DNA of 64,000 bases from Gemmatimonadota bacterium (GTDB lineage: Bacteria > Gemmatimonadota > Gemmatimonadetes > Longimicrobiales > Gaopeijiaceae), in assembly GCA_015664885.1 (NCBI GenBank), contig DQPL01000064.1, positions 1-64,000 of the forward strand, written 5' to 3'. This document shows positions 44,620 through 51,525 of this stretch, piece after piece; positions within the stretch are counted from its first letter, which is position 1; each line of letters begins with the position of its first letter. The notes beneath the pieces were generated by a model, which was not told the DNA's origin, ran no database searches, and saw only the letters and a program-made list of their open reading frames with translations. The position numbers and the translations under genes were made by a program.

Positions 44620-44781
44620 ATGCCAGCCTCGCGTTTCGATCCCCGTCTAGTGCGGCGCCAGAGACGTGTAGTCATGGCCGTTCTGGTCCTGTTCGCGTCC
44701 GCATGCAGCGCAGGGCGAAGCTCGACCTCCGCCGATTCCTCCGGGCCACCGGGCACCGCGGAAGCCGGGTGGCGCCTATGA
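44620..44781 (+). CDS. Short putative lipoprotein, probably a gene fragment
   Basis: ATG 44620 with CAGGAAG upstream opens a basic N-terminus and a lipoprotein signal (RRVVMAVLVLFASAC), then a Ser/Gly/Ala-rich linker and a stop after 53 aa. The next reading frame begins at the overlapping ATGA. The two pieces may be one frameshifted gene, because the linker would run directly into the folded-looking sequence of the next entry. Confidence 0.45.
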   Translation: MPASRFDPRLVRRQRRVVMAVLVLFASACSAGRSSTSADSSGPPGTAEAGWRL

Positions 44782-45093
44782 CAGGTGCCGTTCGTATCTC
44801 GGTGGGTGAGATCGTGCTGATCGACCAAGACCCCTGGGGACTCGACGCGACTGTTGGCTCGGCGATGGGCCTGTCAGAACTCGTGGCGGCGGGCCTCCTA
44901 CGCCGGCCGGATGTGCACTTCGTGGAGCAGCGACGTTTCGCGGCAGCAGCAGAGGCGGAGCGCCGCGGAGAGCACCCGCCGGGAGCTCCACGCGGATGAC
45001 GACCGTGGCATCCGAGCCCGGTTCAGCAGGAGAGTCTCCGCACGCCTCGAGCACGATACAGCAGAGCAGCAATGTCAGCCGCCGGAGGCGCAT
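44776..45093 (-). pseudogene. 5' fragment of a lipoprotein gene, facing the previous fragment
   Basis: The minus-strand frame from ATG 45093 begins with a convincing lipoprotein signal (MRLRRLTLLLCCIVLEAC, then GDSPAEPGSDATVVIRVEL). After about residue 35 it runs into the antisense of the CsgG-like fragment and becomes Arg/Pro-rich with no protein character. Only the first ~100 bp (about 44990-45093) is therefore likely to be real coding sequence. Confidence 0.4.
44778..44999 (+). pseudogene. N-terminal fragment of an unknown extracytoplasmic protein (CsgG-like pattern)
   Basis: A 73-aa frame reading GAVRISVGEIVLIDQDPWG, then SELVAAGLLRRPDVHFVEQRRFAAA, and ending abruptly at GAPRG. The pattern 'small amphipathic domain, then L...rpDVxFVExRRF..A..aER' resembles the start of CsgG-like surface lipoproteins, but the rest of such a protein is missing. 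The coding signal stops where a minus-strand lipoprotein frame begins (about 44990), suggesting a rearrangement point. It overlaps the short lipoprotein frame by 4 bp. Confidence 0.45.
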
Positions 45094-45239: not shown

Positions 45240-46091
45240 ATGAGCAACCTGATACGTCGAGCACTCCTGAGCAGCGTCTTCGTTGCGACCGCGCTGACCG
45301 GAGCTCAGGCACAGAGCAGCCTGACCATCGAACAGGTCAAGGACGGGCTCTATGCGATCATCGGTAGCGGTGGAAACGTCGGCGTGCGGGTCACCCCGCA
45401 AGGCGTGATCCTGATCGACGACAAGTTTCCGCGGAACTTTGCCGAGATTCAGGAGCTCGTGAGCTCGGTGAGCGATCTACCCGTGAGATACGTGCTCAAT
45501 ACCCACCATCACGGGGACCACTCTGGTGGCAACGTCGAGTACATCGACATCTCCGAGGTCATCGCCCACCAGAATGCTCGCGACAACATGGTGAGGGGCA
45601 ACCAGGACGCGCCGCCAAGGGTGGTCTTCACCGATCAGACGGCTGTCTATCTCGGAGGCGTGGAGGTACGAGCGTTCTACATGGGTCGGGGGCATACCAA
45701 CGGCGATGCCGTGATCTACTTCCCCGACCTGAGAACCGTGCACGGCGGTGATCTTCTGCACCGCATCGCGCCATTCATCGACTATGGGAATGGCGGTAGC
45801 AGCGAAGGTTGGGTGGGCACCCTGAACAATATTCTGGAGCTCGACTTCGACACGGCCATCCCGGGGCACGGCGCGGTAATGAACCGGAACGACGTCGTGG
45901 ACTTCCGCAATCAAATGGAGGCGGTTCGCTCGCGCATGGCGGAGTTGATCAGGTCGGGCATGCCCAAGAGCGAAGCGTCGGAGCGCATCAAGACGCAGGA
46001 CCTGAGCTGGACCATGCAGGAGAACGGCCTCTTCATGGGTCGTAGCATTCCGGGTTTCTACGATGAGGTCGCGGCTGAGGTGCGGAACTAG
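45240..46091 (+). CDS. Periplasmic metallo-beta-lactamase-fold hydrolase
   Basis: Track start 45072 is too long; ATG 45240 follows AAAGGGGGG and begins a Sec signal peptide (ALLSSVFVATALTGAQAQ). The 283-aa protein has the full metal motif HHHGDH (His 89, His 91, Asp 93, His 94), a later GRGHTNGDAVIYFPD, HGGDLLH and the C-terminal GHG. It is a zinc-dependent hydrolase with unknown substrate (ester, lactone or beta-lactam-like). It sits 2 bp before a PQQ dehydrogenase and a cytochrome c. Metallo-hydrolases of this fold are known partners of quinoprotein dehydrogenases (quinoprotein-relay/SoxH-like group), so a joint pathway is likely. Confidence 0.82.
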   Translation: MSNLIRRALLSSVFVATALTGAQAQSSLTIEQVKDGLYAIIGSGGNVGVRVTPQGVILIDDKFPRNFAEIQELVSSVSDLPVRYVLNTHHHGDHSGGNVEYIDISEVIAHQNARDNMVRGNQDAPPRVVFTDQTAVYLGGVEVRAFYMGRGHTNGDAVIYFPDLRTVHGGDLLHRIAPFIDYGNGGSSEGWVGTLNNILELDFDTAIPGHGAVMNRNDVVDFRNQMEAVRSRMAELIRSGMPKSEASERIKTQDLSWTMQENGLFMGRSIPGFYDEVAAEVRN

Positions 46092-46093
46092 CC

Positions 46094-47842
46094 ATGAAGA
46101 CCAGACGCCTGCTTTGCGTTTTCATCGTGATGCTGTCGGTGGCGCCGGGCGTTACGGCGCAAGCGAACGACTTCAACACAGTTTCCGAGGATATGCTGCG
46201 TGACCCACCACCGGGTGATTGGTTAAACTGGAGAAGGACGGACGACGCATGGGGTTATAGCCCGCTCGATCAGATCACCTCGGACAACGTCGCTCAACTT
46301 CAGTTGGCGTGGTCGTGGGCCATGGACGACACGGGCGGGCAGGAAGCGGCGCCCCTGGTTCATGACGGCGTCATCTACCTGCCGAATCCACGCGGGGTCA
46401 TTCAGGCGCTCGATGGCGCCAGCGGTGACCTGCTCTGGGAGTATCGCCCTGGCGTCACGCCACGACTGGACGGTACGCCCACTTCGGACAACTCCGGACT
46501 GCCGGCCGGTGCTTTCGCGGGTGTCGGACGTGGAGTGCAGAAAAACATCGCCATCTATGGCGATATGCTGTATGCGGCCACGGGGGACGCGAGCATCGTC
46601 GCCGTGGACGCGAGAACGGGAAGAGAAGTCTGGAGAACCGCGGTGGCTGATCCGGACCTGGGGTACCACTACGTGGCGGGGCCCATCGTCGCTGATGGCA
46701 CGCTCATTACCGGGATCAATGGATGCGACCGCTACAAGGAAGACGTGTGTTTCATCACCGGTCATGATCCACTTACAGGTGAAGAGCTGTGGCGCACCTC
46801 CACCGTGGCCCGCCCGGGGGAGCCGGGTGGTGACACCTGGAGCGATCTGCCGTTGATGTTCAGGGCAGGAAGCGACGCTTGGATCGCAGGCAGCTACGAC
46901 GCGGAAACCGGTTTGGTCTACTGGGCGACCGCACAAGCCAAGCCGTGGGCCAGAGCGCAACGCGGCACCGCCGGGGACGCGCTCTACACCAACTCGAGCC
47001 TGGCGCTCGACCCCAAGACAGGGGAAATGGTCTGGTACTATCAGTACCTGCCAGGCGACACCCACGACATGGACGAGGTCTTCGAGAGCTTGTTGATCGA
47101 CGTGGGTGGGCGAAAGTCGTTGTTCAAGATGGGCAAGCTGGGAATCCTATGGCAGTTGGATCGCACCACGGGCGAATTCATCCACGCCACCGACATCGGG
47201 TACCAGAACATCCTCGACGTCGATCGGGCGACCGGCAGGGTCCGGTATCGGCCCGGCATGGTCCAGGAGCTCGGCATCGAGATCCACATGTGCCCGAGCA
47301 CATCGGGATTCAAGAGCTGGCGCGCGATGGCCTACAGCCCGCAGACGAGATTCCTGTACATCCCCATCACGCTCAACTGCGAGCGCGCGACGTTCGGGCC
47401 GGTCGATCGGATTCCTGGGGGTGGCGGCACAGGTCCGGTGCGACGCATCAACACCGAGCATCCGGCAGCGGAGGGAAACCTGGGTGAGCTGCTGGTCATG
47501 GATGTCACCAACGGCGAGATCAAATGGCGCCATCGCACGCCCTCACCGATCAATACCGCGGCGCTCACCACCGCGGGAGGCTTGGTCTTCGCAGGGGACT
47601 GGGATCGGCACATGTACGCCTATGATGCGGCAACCGGCGACATCCTGTGGCAGACGCGCTTACCCACTTCCGCTCAGGGCTTCCCGATTTCGTATTTGGC
47701 GGACGGCAAGCAGTACGTGGCAATGCCCGTGGGGATTGGCGGCGCGAGCTGGTCCACGATGCTACCCAATGACCTGTCACCCGAAATTCGGCGCCCGAGC
47801 AACGGCAATTCCATCCACGTGTTCGCGCTGCCGAAGCGATGA
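46094..47842 (+). CDS. PQQ-dependent dehydrogenase (quinoprotein alcohol dehydrogenase family)
   Basis: Periplasmic eight-bladed propeller enzyme that should oxidise an alcohol or related compound using PQQ. The 582-aa protein has a Sec signal (LLCVFIVMLSVAPGVTAQA), the N-terminal DWLNWRRTDDAWGYSPLDQI, tryptophan-docking repeats (GDLLWEYRPG, GEELWRTST, GEIKWRHRTP, GDILWQTRLP), and GDTHDMDEVFESLLIDVGG, the usual blade before the active site. I see no vicinal Cys-Cys pair of methanol dehydrogenases in the expected blade, and no fused haem domain. Electrons would go to the separate cytochrome encoded next. No PQQ synthesis genes are in the window. Confidence 0.9.
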   Translation: MKTRRLLCVFIVMLSVAPGVTAQANDFNTVSEDMLRDPPPGDWLNWRRTDDAWGYSPLDQITSDNVAQLQLAWSWAMDDTGGQEAAPLVHDGVIYLPNPRGVIQALDGASGDLLWEYRPGVTPRLDGTPTSDNSGLPAGAFAGVGRGVQKNIAIYGDMLYAATGDASIVAVDARTGREVWRTAVADPDLGYHYVAGPIVADGTLITGINGCDRYKEDVCFITGHDPLTGEELWRTSTVARPGEPGGDTWSDLPLMFRAGSDAWIAGSYDAETGLVYWATAQAKPWARAQRGTAGDALYTNSSLALDPKTGEMVWYYQYLPGDTHDMDEVFESLLIDVGGRKSLFKMGKLGILWQLDRTTGEFIHATDIGYQNILDVDRATGRVRYRPGMVQELGIEIHMCPSTSGFKSWRAMAYSPQTRFLYIPITLNCERATFGPVDRIPGGGGTGPVRRINTEHPAAEGNLGELLVMDVTNGEIKWRHRTPSPINTAALTTAGGLVFAGDWDRHMYAYDAATGDILWQTRLPTSAQGFPISYLADGKQYVAMPVGIGGASWSTMLPNDLSPEIRRPSNGNSIHVFALPKR

Positions 47843-48366
47843 TATCGCGACCCAGGTCATCATTTTTCGTGCTCGGACTGCTGGCTACGGCCACCGCGTG
47901 CGCCGGACCCTCAGTCGCCCAGCCCGGAAGCCCAGCGGCCCAGTCCGGAGGCTCGTTGGCCGAATCCGGAGGCGCTGAATCCGCAGTCGGGGAGTCCGGA
48001 AGCGCGTTGGCCGAGTCTGTCTGGGCCGGCATCTATTCGCAGCAGCAGGCCGAACGTGGCGCAGCCCACTACCTGGAAACCTGCTCGTCCTGCCACTCGG
48101 AAGATCTGCGTGGCAACAGCAATGCGCCGAGCTTGATCGGATCTAGCTTCATGTTTCTCTGGGGGGATCGATCTCTTGGTGACCTGTTTACGAGCATCCA
48201 AACGCTGATGCCGACCAACGCGCCCAACAGTCTGCCACCTCAGAGCTACCTCGACATCCTGGCCTTCATCATGGAATCCAACGGGTTCCCGCCTGGTACG
48301 AGCGAACTCGTGGCTGACCCCGCATTTCTCGGCCAGATCATGATCACCGCGAGGTCCGGGCTATAG
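47839..48366 (+). CDS. Cytochrome c lipoprotein, probable electron acceptor of the PQQ dehydrogenase
   Basis: A 175-aa protein whose ATG overlaps the dehydrogenase stop (ATGA). The N-terminus is a lipoprotein signal (VLGLLATATAC, Cys 21), followed by a flexible Ser/Gly/Ala/Glu linker of about 40 residues with near-repeats (AQSGGSLAESGG, GESGSALAES), then a cytochrome c domain with one CSSCH haem site (82-86) and a likely Met axial ligand in LMPTNAP. The linker would let a membrane-tethered haem domain reach the periplasmic enzyme. Similar domains end soluble alcohol dehydrogenases as fusions; here the cytochrome is separate. Confidence 0.88.
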   Translation: MISRPRSSFFVLGLLATATACAGPSVAQPGSPAAQSGGSLAESGGAESAVGESGSALAESVWAGIYSQQQAERGAAHYLETCSSCHSEDLRGNSNAPSLIGSSFMFLWGDRSLGDLFTSIQTLMPTNAPNSLPPQSYLDILAFIMESNGFPPGTSELVADPAFLGQIMITARSGL

Positions 48367-48374
48367 GAGATTCC

Positions 48375-49226
48375 GTGGGCCCACTGGGCCGAGCCTTCCT
48401 GGTGCTCGCCCTGGTGACCGTCGCCTGGTCGGCGCAGCCCGCCGACATGGCGGCACAGTTTCCGTACCATCTGTCCAAACGCGACGCGATCGCGTTGCCC
48501 GCGTTGGCGGCCGCGGGCGCTCTCTCGCAGGTAGTAGCCAATTCGGTGAGCGGTCTCGAGCGCTCGCAGTTGAAGGCCCTGAACCGTGCGGACGTCAACG
48601 GCTTCGACCGATGGGCGACCCGGCAGTGGTCCGAGTCCTGGCAAAGCCGAAGCGACCGTCTTCGCCTCATCGCATGGTCGAGCTCTGCCGGCGCGATTGC
48701 CATCGCCGACCTTGAGGGTGGCTTCTTCACGACACTCGTGATGGGCCTCGAGGTGGGCCTGGCTGTCGGCAGTATCACGCAGTACACCAAAGCAGCAACA
48801 CGACGGATGCGCCCTTATGCCTACAACTCCGACGTGAGCGTCGACGAGAGGTACGTCAAGGCTACGGCGGAAGGAGACGCGCGCCTCTCGTTCTTCTCGG
48901 GGCACGCGTCGACAGCCTTCGCCTCTGCGGTCTTCGCCTCAACCGTATTGGATCACATCTATTCCGACGCGTGGTGGACGAAGTGGGTCTGGGTAGGCAC
49001 ACTCGCCGCCGCCTCGGGCACAGCCTACGCGCGCACCAAGGCCGGAAAGCACTATCCGACGGACGTGCTCACCGGAGCAGCAGTCGGAAGCGCGGTCGCC
49101 TTCTTCCTGCCGAAAATGCACGAGCGACATGGAACCGCAGCACCTGAAGCAGGCGACGGCCGGGTCAGCGTGGCGCTCTCCTCGGGAGGACTTGGCCTCC
49201 GAATCGGGGTCGGGCCGGGTCGCTGA
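48375..49226 (+). CDS. PAP2-family phosphatase
   Basis: A 283-aa protein with a GTG start and a clear TAGGAGA ribosome-binding site. PAP2 motifs: KAATRRMRP (KxxxxxxRP), FSGHAS (the SGH motif) and ARTKAGKHYPTD (SRxxxxxHxxxD-like, with Ala instead of Ser). Hydrophobic helices fit the membrane-embedded lipid-phosphatase type, with a possible signal sequence. It may dephosphorylate undecaprenyl pyrophosphate or phosphatidate; the sequence does not decide. It follows the cytochrome by 8 bp, so it is probably co-transcribed, although a functional link is not obvious. Confidence 0.85.
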   Translation: MGPLGRAFLVLALVTVAWSAQPADMAAQFPYHLSKRDAIALPALAAAGALSQVVANSVSGLERSQLKALNRADVNGFDRWATRQWSESWQSRSDRLRLIAWSSSAGAIAIADLEGGFFTTLVMGLEVGLAVGSITQYTKAATRRMRPYAYNSDVSVDERYVKATAEGDARLSFFSGHASTAFASAVFASTVLDHIYSDAWWTKWVWVGTLAAASGTAYARTKAGKHYPTDVLTGAAVGSAVAFFLPKMHERHGTAAPEAGDGRVSVALSSGGLGLRIGVGPGR

Positions 49227-49865: not shown

Positions 49866-51147
49866 GCAGGCTCCACGGGGTCGTTCGCTTCCACGGGCAG
49901 CACCGCGTTCAATACCAGCGAGCTCAACCCACCCGTGATCAGCCCCGATCCGAAGAACGTGCCGACCCAGTCCGGCAGGCTCTGCAAAACGTCGGGCCGT
50001 AGCTCGATTCCGAGTCCCAGCCCAAGCGAGACTGCCAGGACGATCATGTTACGCTGATCGAGCACGACGCCTCGATGCAGGATCGCCGCGCCGCTCGCAA
50101 AGATCACGGAGAACATGATGAGCCCTCCGCCTCCAATGACCGGTGCCGGAATCGTGGCGAAACCGGCGCCGACGACTGGTACGAGGCCGAAGACCACCAG
50201 GATTACTCCCGAGATCGCGGTGACGTGGCGGCTCACGACCCCGGTGAAGTTCACGAGGCCCACGGTCTGTGAATACGAAGTGTTCGGAAACGCGCTGAAG
50301 AGCGCCGCCAGACCGCTCATGACACCATCGGCGACGAGCCCGCCCCTCAGCTCCTGGGTCGTCGCGTCGCGGTCCACCGCAGCGAGTGTGCCTGAGATAT
50401 CCCCGATCGTCTCCATGGCGCTGATCACGTAAATGAACGCCATGAGCAGGATGGCGTCGACATGGAACTCCAGGCCGAAGGCCAGCGGTCTGGGCGCGGC
50501 GAGCAAGCCGGCGTCCGAGACCGCAGAGAAGTCCACCCTGCCCAGCGCGATCGCGAGCGCGTACCCGGTGACGACACCTACGAGCAAGCTCGCATGGCGG
50601 AGGAAGCCCTTCCCGAAGCGGTTGAGCAGCAGCGTCACCAAGAAGACCACGCCGGCCATCAACAGGTTCACCGGTGCCCCATAGTCGGCCGCTGCCACGC
50701 CACCGGCCGCGTAGTCCATGCCTACCGGAATGAGCGTGAGCCCAATGAGCATCACGACGATTCCGTTCACCAACGGCGGGAAGAGAGTCCGCAGGCGGCT
50801 GATCGAGAAGCCCAGCAGAATCTCGACCACCGAGGCAACCAGGCACGCACCGAAAACCGCCGCCAGTCCGTATTCACGGCCGATCACGATGATGCCGGTC
50901 ACAAAAGCGATGCTCGTCCCCATGATGACCGGAATGCGTCCGCCGACCGGCCCGATGGGGTACGCCTGCACGAGGATCGCAATGCCCGCCATGAAGAACA
51001 CGGCCTGCATGAGCAACGCGGTGTCTGCCCCGAGAGGCTGAGCGCGCCGGCCACCAGTAGCGGCGGCGTGATGTTGCCCAGCAGCATCGCCACCAGGTGC
51101 TGGAACCCGAGTGGCACGGCCTCGCGCAGGGGTGGCCGATCGTCCAC
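49862..51147 (-). pseudogene. Uracil/xanthine permease (NCS2 family) split by a one-base frameshift
   Basis: Purine or uracil importer of the inner membrane. The main frame (49862-51016) lacks its first ~45 residues; these are found in another minus-strand frame from GTG 51147 ([21 protein letters not shown] and GALSLSG). Adding one G to the CCCC run at 51028-51031 (plus strand) restores the join, giving SLSG-ADTALLMQAVF as expected. The repaired protein would be about 428 aa with NCS2 features such as GLQHxxAM-like [22 protein letters not shown] and roughly 12-14 helices. It is either a real inactivating mutation or a sequencing error. The divergent neighbour is a molybdo-hydroxylase subunit fragment, fitting a former purine-use locus. 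Confidence 0.85.
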
Positions 51148-51246
51148 CCCCTATACGACGTGCTTGCGTCCGTTCTGGCCCATTCTCAGCTTAGCCCTCG
51201 CCGCTCCACCCTCGTCTCTCCGCTATCCCTAGGACATCCGCCCACC

Positions 51247-51525
51247 TTGACTCACGAACGGACCATCCCCTCCCCCATCAGAATCACCATCAACGGCGTG
51301 CCGCGCGAAGGCTCAGCCGAGGCACGGATGCTCCTGAGCGATTTCCTTCGTCATGAGCTACGCCTCACCGGGACACACGTGGGGTGCGAGCACGGCGTCT
51401 GCGGTGCCTGCACGGTTCTGCTCGACGGCGTCTCTGTGCGATCGTGCCTCATGTTCGCGGTCCAGGCCAATGTCCGTATTCAACTCGAGCGGCCCTTACG
51501 AATTCCAGGGGAGCGTCCCTCCTGA
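51247..51525 (+). pseudogene. Truncated [2Fe-2S] subunit of a molybdenum hydroxylase (CoxS/XdhC type)
   Basis: From TTG 51247 the frame reads [21 protein letters not shown], then [22 protein letters not shown] and [11 protein letters not shown]. The four plant-ferredoxin-type ligands are intact (CEHGVCGAC plus SC). In the family the next part should be the second, all-helical [2Fe-2S] domain with LQCGFCTPG; here homology stops at about 51469 and the frame ends soon after with unrelated sequence. The missing half and catalytic partners are not in the window. Divergent from the permease gene, 99 bp away. Confidence 0.85.

Follow-up and report, generated by a model that had tools for sequence, protein, structure and literature searches.

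The closest described relatives of the locus considered here are the sorbose/alcohol-type dehydrogenases of the pyrroloquinoline quinone (PQQ) family, represented by the Pseudogluconobacter alcohol dehydrogenase 4CVB, the sorbose dehydrogenase 4MH1, and DepA of Devosia. In 4CVB, three of the four calcium ligands reportedly differ from those of the methanol-dehydrogenase type, and the associated cytochrome c is said to have been proposed to reach PQQ directly, the vicinal disulfide being absent. DepA is 91% identical to 4CVB (PMC10975547). Putative lanthanide sorbose dehydrogenases of marine Acidobacteria and Gammaproteobacteria have been described as a third clade, whose members carry exclusively the D-x-D motif of lanthanide-type enzymes; many sorbose-type genes are found in few organisms, mostly Acidobacteria and Gammaproteobacteria, and some genomes hold up to 70 lanthanide-type enzymes (PMC11996626). 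Cytochrome partners are left untreated in that paper, the word “cytochrome” not being found in its text. Type II quinohaemoproteins and polyvinyl-alcohol dehydrogenase combine the same propeller with a fused haem c (PMC6472588), and in the ped cluster of Pseudomonas putida, the PQQ dehydrogenases PedE and PedH are clustered with a separate cytochrome c550 (PedF) and an exported metallo-beta-lactamase-fold (MBL) protein, the SoxH-like PP_2678 (PMC12997753). With these systems we compare three adjoining genes at positions 45240–48366 of a 64,000-nucleotide stretch of DNA from a Gemmatimonadota bacterium of the Gaopeijiaceae (assembly GCA_015664885.1, contig DQPL01000064.1, positions 1 to 64,000; G000:C26:1-64000 in our numbering), hereafter the window. 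They encode an exported MBL hydrolase, an exported PQQ-family dehydrogenase, and a small cytochrome c, and are probably best explained as a two-gene electron-transfer unit of dehydrogenase and cytochrome with a lineage-specific tether, the hydrolase being optional.

The genome (G000; 3.96 Mb) is 99.3% complete, and a congener (G001) is available for comparison. All three genes lie on the + strand, as do their features given below, and follow one another with a 2-bp gap and then a 4-bp overlap, just as the initial annotation had them; its assignment of the products to an exported metallo-hydrolase, a haem-free PQQ dehydrogenase, and a haem protein with a long linker was likewise borne out. The Pfam matches are Lactamase_B (PF00753; 3.3e-17) for the hydrolase, PQQ (PF01011; 4e-63) for the dehydrogenase, and Cytochrome_CBB3 (PF13442; 1.4e-7) for the cytochrome. 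Protein identity to the congener reaches 92% for the hydrolase, 91% for the dehydrogenase, and 64% for the cytochrome, the last value being low in part because the linkers differ in length (40 vs. 26 residues). The ratios of nonsynonymous to synonymous substitution rates against the congener (dN/dS, YN00), 0.045 for the hydrolase and 0.068 for the dehydrogenase, point to purifying selection and thus to real, constrained genes; for the haem region of the cytochrome, a method cruder than YN00 gave 0.28, which likewise points to purifying selection.

By its sequence, the window dehydrogenase (46094–47842; 582 aa, haem-free) is a member of the sorbose/alcohol-type PQQ dehydrogenases, the 4CVB group. 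Its top five matches among solved structures (22vi, 9m2c, 4mh1, 4cvb, and 7wmd) extend over the full length with E-values from 3.8e-96 to 5.2e-90, and it shares with the solved enzymes and DepA the catalytic Asp and the lack of a vicinal Cys-Cys, which occurs nowhere in the protein, nor does CXXCH. It differs from the solved enzymes in having Q281, K283, and W285 in place of Gly, Gly, and Ala, in possessing its own dedicated cytochrome downstream, and in bearing Asp rather than Glu two residues past the catalytic Asp, so that D-x-D stands where the solved calcium enzymes carry D-x-E. When conservation was counted over 84 aligned sequences, D325, D327, W249, K348, E331, and the cysteines 219, 400, and 429 proved invariant (84/84), while 83 sequences have C211 and 82 have Q281 and K283; C211 and C219 make up a non-vicinal Cys pair (46724–46750). 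W263 (46880–46882), invariant in alignment A1, is taken here to be the counterpart of the PQQ-stacking Trp243 of MxaF, and K348 (47135–47137) is presumably that of the family’s active-site Arg331/Lys. The D325-M-D327 element (47066–47074) comprises the catalytic Asp and the second Asp of the D-x-D lanthanide motif, from which a lanthanide is predicted as the metal. The enzyme would fall in the third clade of PMC11996626, with which it has in common the exclusive D-x-D, the phyla, and the many copies per genome. The initial annotation would have been refuted by a lack of PQQ ligands in an alignment, which is not what the alignment shows: the catalytic Asp, the stacking Trp, and the Lys are kept, although the methanol-dehydrogenase Glu and Asn metal ligands are replaced, the Glu position varying among the dehydrogenases (D, G, S, T, E, and others), with Gln in place of the Asn. 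Both ligands are absent from the solved sorbose/alcohol subfamily too. The methanol/ethanol type (MxaF/XoxF/PedH; TIGR03075) was ruled out as the family of the enzyme (370.9 bits against a cut-off of 480, no Cys-Cys, and the Glu177/Asn261 ligands not kept), and the curated score of the Acido-empty-quinoprotein group A (TIGR04528) was not reached (289.5 bits against 650).

A scan of 84,980 species genomes yielded 80 loci, and a close-relative set was defined as 37 dehydrogenases of at least 64% identity, the window and its congener counted in. A homologue of the cytochrome lies next to or in 26 of these 37, as a directly downstream gene in 16 and as a C-terminal fusion in 10. Within the 20-member clade of the window it is present throughout (20/20; 10 separate genes just downstream and 10 fused). 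All ten C-terminal fusions come from Acidobacteriota (Holophagales, Thermoanaerobaculia, and Candidatus Multivorans); they group in a single clade with 100/100 support, indicating one origin of the fusion. The window cytochrome is homologous both to the C-terminal haem domains of the ten fused relatives and to the N-terminal haem domains of paralogues in its own genome; in the nearest of these (C11, ~50% identity; L023:8964-11072 on the - strand and L024:3996-6212 on the + strand), the haem c domain is N-terminal, opposite in position to that of the fused orthologues. The natural occurrence of haem fusions at both ends provides good evidence for joint function of the dehydrogenase and cytochrome domains, and the pair, judged from its distribution among genomes, is an actual module conserved across three phyla. 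The idea of a separate, dedicated cytochrome c partner for an exported PQQ-family dehydrogenase, put forward in the initial annotation, is thus sustained by the conserved pairing and by the natural fusion in ten relatives. In comparison with the quinohaemoproteins of PMC6472588, the window haem domain is a separate (predicted) lipoprotein, and fusion is C-terminal in its relatives and N-terminal in its own paralogues.

Two other arrangements were observed around such dehydrogenases. An exported family of ~350 aa with a “PDLQGNW” motif stands several times beside PQQ dehydrogenases (L020:2626-3714, L039:3801-4913, L040:4548-5927, L021:9584-10600, and L038:11363-12433), and no Pfam match was obtained for two members tested. 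At L064:5607-6929, a cytochrome c and an alpha/beta-hydrolase-like domain are encoded in one frame directly 3′ of a close dehydrogenase relative, with a second cytochrome upstream.

The cytochrome of the window (47839–48366; 175 aa) is a predicted monohaem lipoprotein with a single CSSCH haem-c attachment site at aa 82–86 (48082–48096) and with Met124 (48208–48210, in MPTNAPNSLP) as the presumed axial ligand, the MP motif being present in 16/16 cytochromes. Cys21 (47899–47901), within TATA-C-AG, is predicted to be lipidated by a PROSITE-like lipobox pattern and is followed by a low-complexity linker of 40 Ser, Gly, Ala, and Glu residues (47902–48021) containing a 15-bp repeat in three copies; a lipid probably attaches the protein to the membrane. 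Four of the 16 separate cytochromes have the lipobox pattern (those of the window, the congener, L039, and L040, together a Gemmatimonadota clade with support of 98/95), and it is missing from 12/12 others; the linker after the lipobox Cys is 26, 23, and 21 residues long in the three relatives of the window. Most of the lipobox-free separate cytochromes show a signal-peptidase-I-like motif (AQ or similar) just ahead of the haem domain, and two Gemmatimonadota cytochromes outside the four-member clade, L065 and L068, have no lipobox. Since the lipobox is confined to one Gemmatimonadota clade, the tether appears to be a feature of the lineage and not of the module generally, and it is apparently a derived trait of the window’s Gemmatimonadota lineage. 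The haem protein had initially been regarded as unlike the usual soluble or fused ones, which holds for the four-member clade, but the nearest relatives have exactly the soluble and the fused versions. A literature search, with most subscription journals outside its coverage, returned no paper on a lipoprotein cytochrome as a quinoprotein acceptor.

About 40 PQQ-dehydrogenase-like reading frames were counted by hand among the listed open frames of the genome. Of 13 own-genome sequences in the alignment, 12 keep D-x-D, and several retain Glu, Asn, or vicinal Cys features of the canonical type. The search for pqq genes suggested in the initial annotation found neither pqqC nor pqqE in this genome: pqqC is absent from both the window species and its congener, although across the phylum the same model exceeds its cut-off in 34 of 298 genomes (G032 and G038 included), and the best pqqE match reaches only 106 bits against a cut-off of 381. 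The best match to PqqB is also sub-threshold (C31:45844-46710; 125 vs. 245 bits). Because pqqC and pqqE are missing, PQQ is probably obtained by scavenging. A TonB receptor of the same genome (L142; G000:C5:75480-77459) matches PqqU of E. coli with an E-value of 6.6e-74 and scores 249 bits against 62 for the next. It has been reported that the importer PqqU is present in 183 Gemmatimonadetes and that PQQ biosynthesis is found in just 23% of PqqU carriers (PMC12124388).

In the mechanism proposed here, the propeller would receive imported PQQ and a metal, a lanthanide according to the D-x-D motif, in the periplasm and would oxidise an alcohol, a polyol, or a sugar hydroxyl. As the active site has no vicinal disulfide, electrons may pass straight to the small dedicated cytochrome c and from there to the respiratory chain. 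The N-terminal lipid and a flexible linker of 21–40 residues would anchor the cytochrome to the membrane in this lineage of Gemmatimonadota; in gammaproteobacterial and other relatives, the protein appears to be soluble in the periplasm, and in one Acidobacteriota clade it forms the C-terminal part of the dehydrogenase itself. A wider picture can be offered tentatively, as a serious possibility: a lanthanide-type PQQ dehydrogenase that transfers electrons directly, with no vicinal disulfide, to a cytochrome whose attachment has been reshaped in three ways (soluble, fused, and lipid-tethered), in an organism with about 40 quinoprotein dehydrogenases that makes no PQQ and would rely on what other organisms release for its periplasmic oxidation. 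Lanthanide sorbose-type enzymes, their many copies per genome, PQQ import in Gemmatimonadetes, and cytochrome partners are each already in the literature singly. The fused, soluble, and lipid-tethered forms of one pair provide a natural comparison for electron transfer in quinoproteins devoid of the vicinal disulfide, a specific electron acceptor is named for an abundant, uncharacterised class of predicted lanthanide enzymes, and some 40 dehydrogenases in a genome lacking pqqC and pqqE make a testable case of cofactor scavenging.

Several observations weigh against this reading. No cytochrome is found nearby in 11 of the 37 close relatives, which belong to soil and freshwater Acidobacteriota. 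The lipobox was assigned by pattern and, with small residues at positions -3/-2, is not of the strongest type. The structure model of a fused homologue was poor (mean predicted local distance difference test, pLDDT, of 40.7, with 10 near-identical alignment rows) and was not used. In the PqqU-like receptor, the signature Y99/R304/R365 is represented by Phe at 99, and no clear Arg is aligned at 365; with two of the three signature residues unmatched, PQQ import is likely rather than demonstrated. Finally, the window and its congener share downstream flanking genes, so that the trio in the two genomes is a single inherited event.

The hydrolase (45240–46091; 283 aa) has a Sec-type signal peptide and a binuclear metal site. 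Its HxHxDH motif (H89–H94; 45504–45521) occupies invariant columns in the alignment of homologues, and the complete set of metal ligands (H89, H91, D93, H94, H152, D171, and H210) is invariant in 13 of them. The structure model (mean pLDDT 77) is best matched by 8d2z (an uncharacterised Burkholderia protein), B1 beta-lactamases, and chlorothalonil dehalogenase, but identities of 17–23% give no substrate. Subclass B1 metallo-beta-lactamases were ruled out (65.4 bits vs. 200), Asp171 being invariant at the GGD position instead of the Cys second-site ligand. Within genus g24, the MBL gene of one genome (G024) precedes a broken dehydrogenase, with no cytochrome, and two further genomes have the MBL alone; the G024 dehydrogenase relative (L020:4679-6217) is interrupted by a frame break and a stop, the cytochrome gene is missing, and the adjoining MBL is intact.

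The initial annotation had combined the three genes into one unit, in which extracytoplasmic cleavage of an ester or lactone by the MBL would be followed by oxidation of the freed alcohol by the dehydrogenase, with the cytochrome removing the electrons. The electron-transfer half of this pathway is inferred from strong genomic evidence, but the “hydrolyse, then oxidise” half is weak, and the three-step pathway of hydrolysis, oxidation, and respiration is possible and weakly supported. The close spacing on one strand, which the congener preserves under strong purifying selection, speaks for such a unit, as do the exported MBLs of a second type (~50% identical) located upstream of the pair at 0.8 kb in L039 and 2.6 kb in L040 and the fusion of a cytochrome to an alpha/beta-hydrolase-like domain in L064. 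L049 and L065 have longer exported MBL-containing proteins near the pair, and L058 has a partial MBL-like match, so hydrolases may loosely tend to sit near dehydrogenase–cytochrome pairs. However, the tight trio was found only in the window species and its congener, plus the one genome with a broken dehydrogenase, and orthologues of the MBL with 75–85% identity in six genomes (G286, G216, G146, G004, G032, and G162, in the last of which the gene sits at a contig end) have no such dehydrogenase or cytochrome within ~4–12 kb on each side. In genus g24 the MBL persists, but one member has a broken dehydrogenase and in two none was found beside the MBL; nor does an MBL directly adjoin most of the dehydrogenase relatives. 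A conserved three-gene operon is therefore rejected, as in the stretches covered the MBL has orthologues that lack the pair and the majority of pairs lack the MBL; for the hydrolase, then, the trio is largely not conserved, and a functional unit of all three genes is unlikely. The MBL looks like an independent, optional neighbour, inherited beside the pair within this genus.

The order of the reactions might also be reversed, the dehydrogenase turning an aldose or a diol into a lactone that the MBL, as a lactonase, would then open. The chemistry of sugar-oxidising quinoproteins is known, MBL-fold lactonases exist, and the nearest solved relatives of the window enzyme are sugar/alcohol dehydrogenases, but the MBL linkage is not conserved and no lactonase family was matched, which makes this order quite improbable. 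An accessory role for the MBL, exerted on the system rather than on a substrate, is suggested by its top NCBIfam matches (TIGR04559 and TIGR04558, the “quinoprotein relay” SoxH-like families) and by PP_2678, which adjoins pedH in P. putida (PMC12997753). The likeness to the ped cluster as a whole lies in the grouping of a PQQ dehydrogenase, a separate cytochrome c, and an exported MBL; unlike the window cytochrome, however, PedF is periplasmic. A SoxH-like quinoprotein-relay zinc metallohydrolase was ruled out by score, since 73.2 bits (TIGR04559) and 68.8 bits (TIGR04558) are far under the cut-offs of 280 and 300, and the association has been described for enzymes with adjacent active-site cysteines (PMC12997753), which the window dehydrogenase lacks, so that an accessory of this kind is very improbable here. 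Least probable of all would be a loss of PQQ binding, leaving an “empty” propeller in an organism unable to make the cofactor. The missing pqqC and pqqE, the replaced methanol-dehydrogenase Glu and Asn metal ligands, and the relatedness to TIGR04528 (289 bits, cut-off 650) are in its favour, but the catalytic Asp, the second Asp, the stacking Trp, and the Lys are invariant, the cytochrome partner is conserved, and the replaced ligands are likewise absent from the solved subfamily. In addition, the same genome has canonical paralogues with intact PQQ sites, and PQQ scavenging has been documented for Gemmatimonadetes (PMC12124388). The two-gene electron-transfer unit is therefore retained as the preferred explanation.

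A promoter scan gave no signal above chance. Beginning 8 bp 3′ of the cytochrome gene, a PAP2-family phosphatase is encoded on the + strand (48375–49226); it is a neighbour outside the unit and was ruled out as its fourth member, being unmatched in the congener region L019. Divergent from the trio, positions 44776–45093 of the window (- strand) hold a shortened version of a congener gene for a 351-aa lipoprotein, with 33 residues at 67%. Farther downstream, positions 51097–51525 (+ strand) resemble a cut-short 2Fe-2S subunit of the xanthine-dehydrogenase type that continues into unrelated sequence. One of the dehydrogenase loci, L073 (NVVR01000064.1, a Bacteroidota record labelled Kordia sp. 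NORP58), shows 99% identity to the window dehydrogenase, and its contig is probably misbinned.

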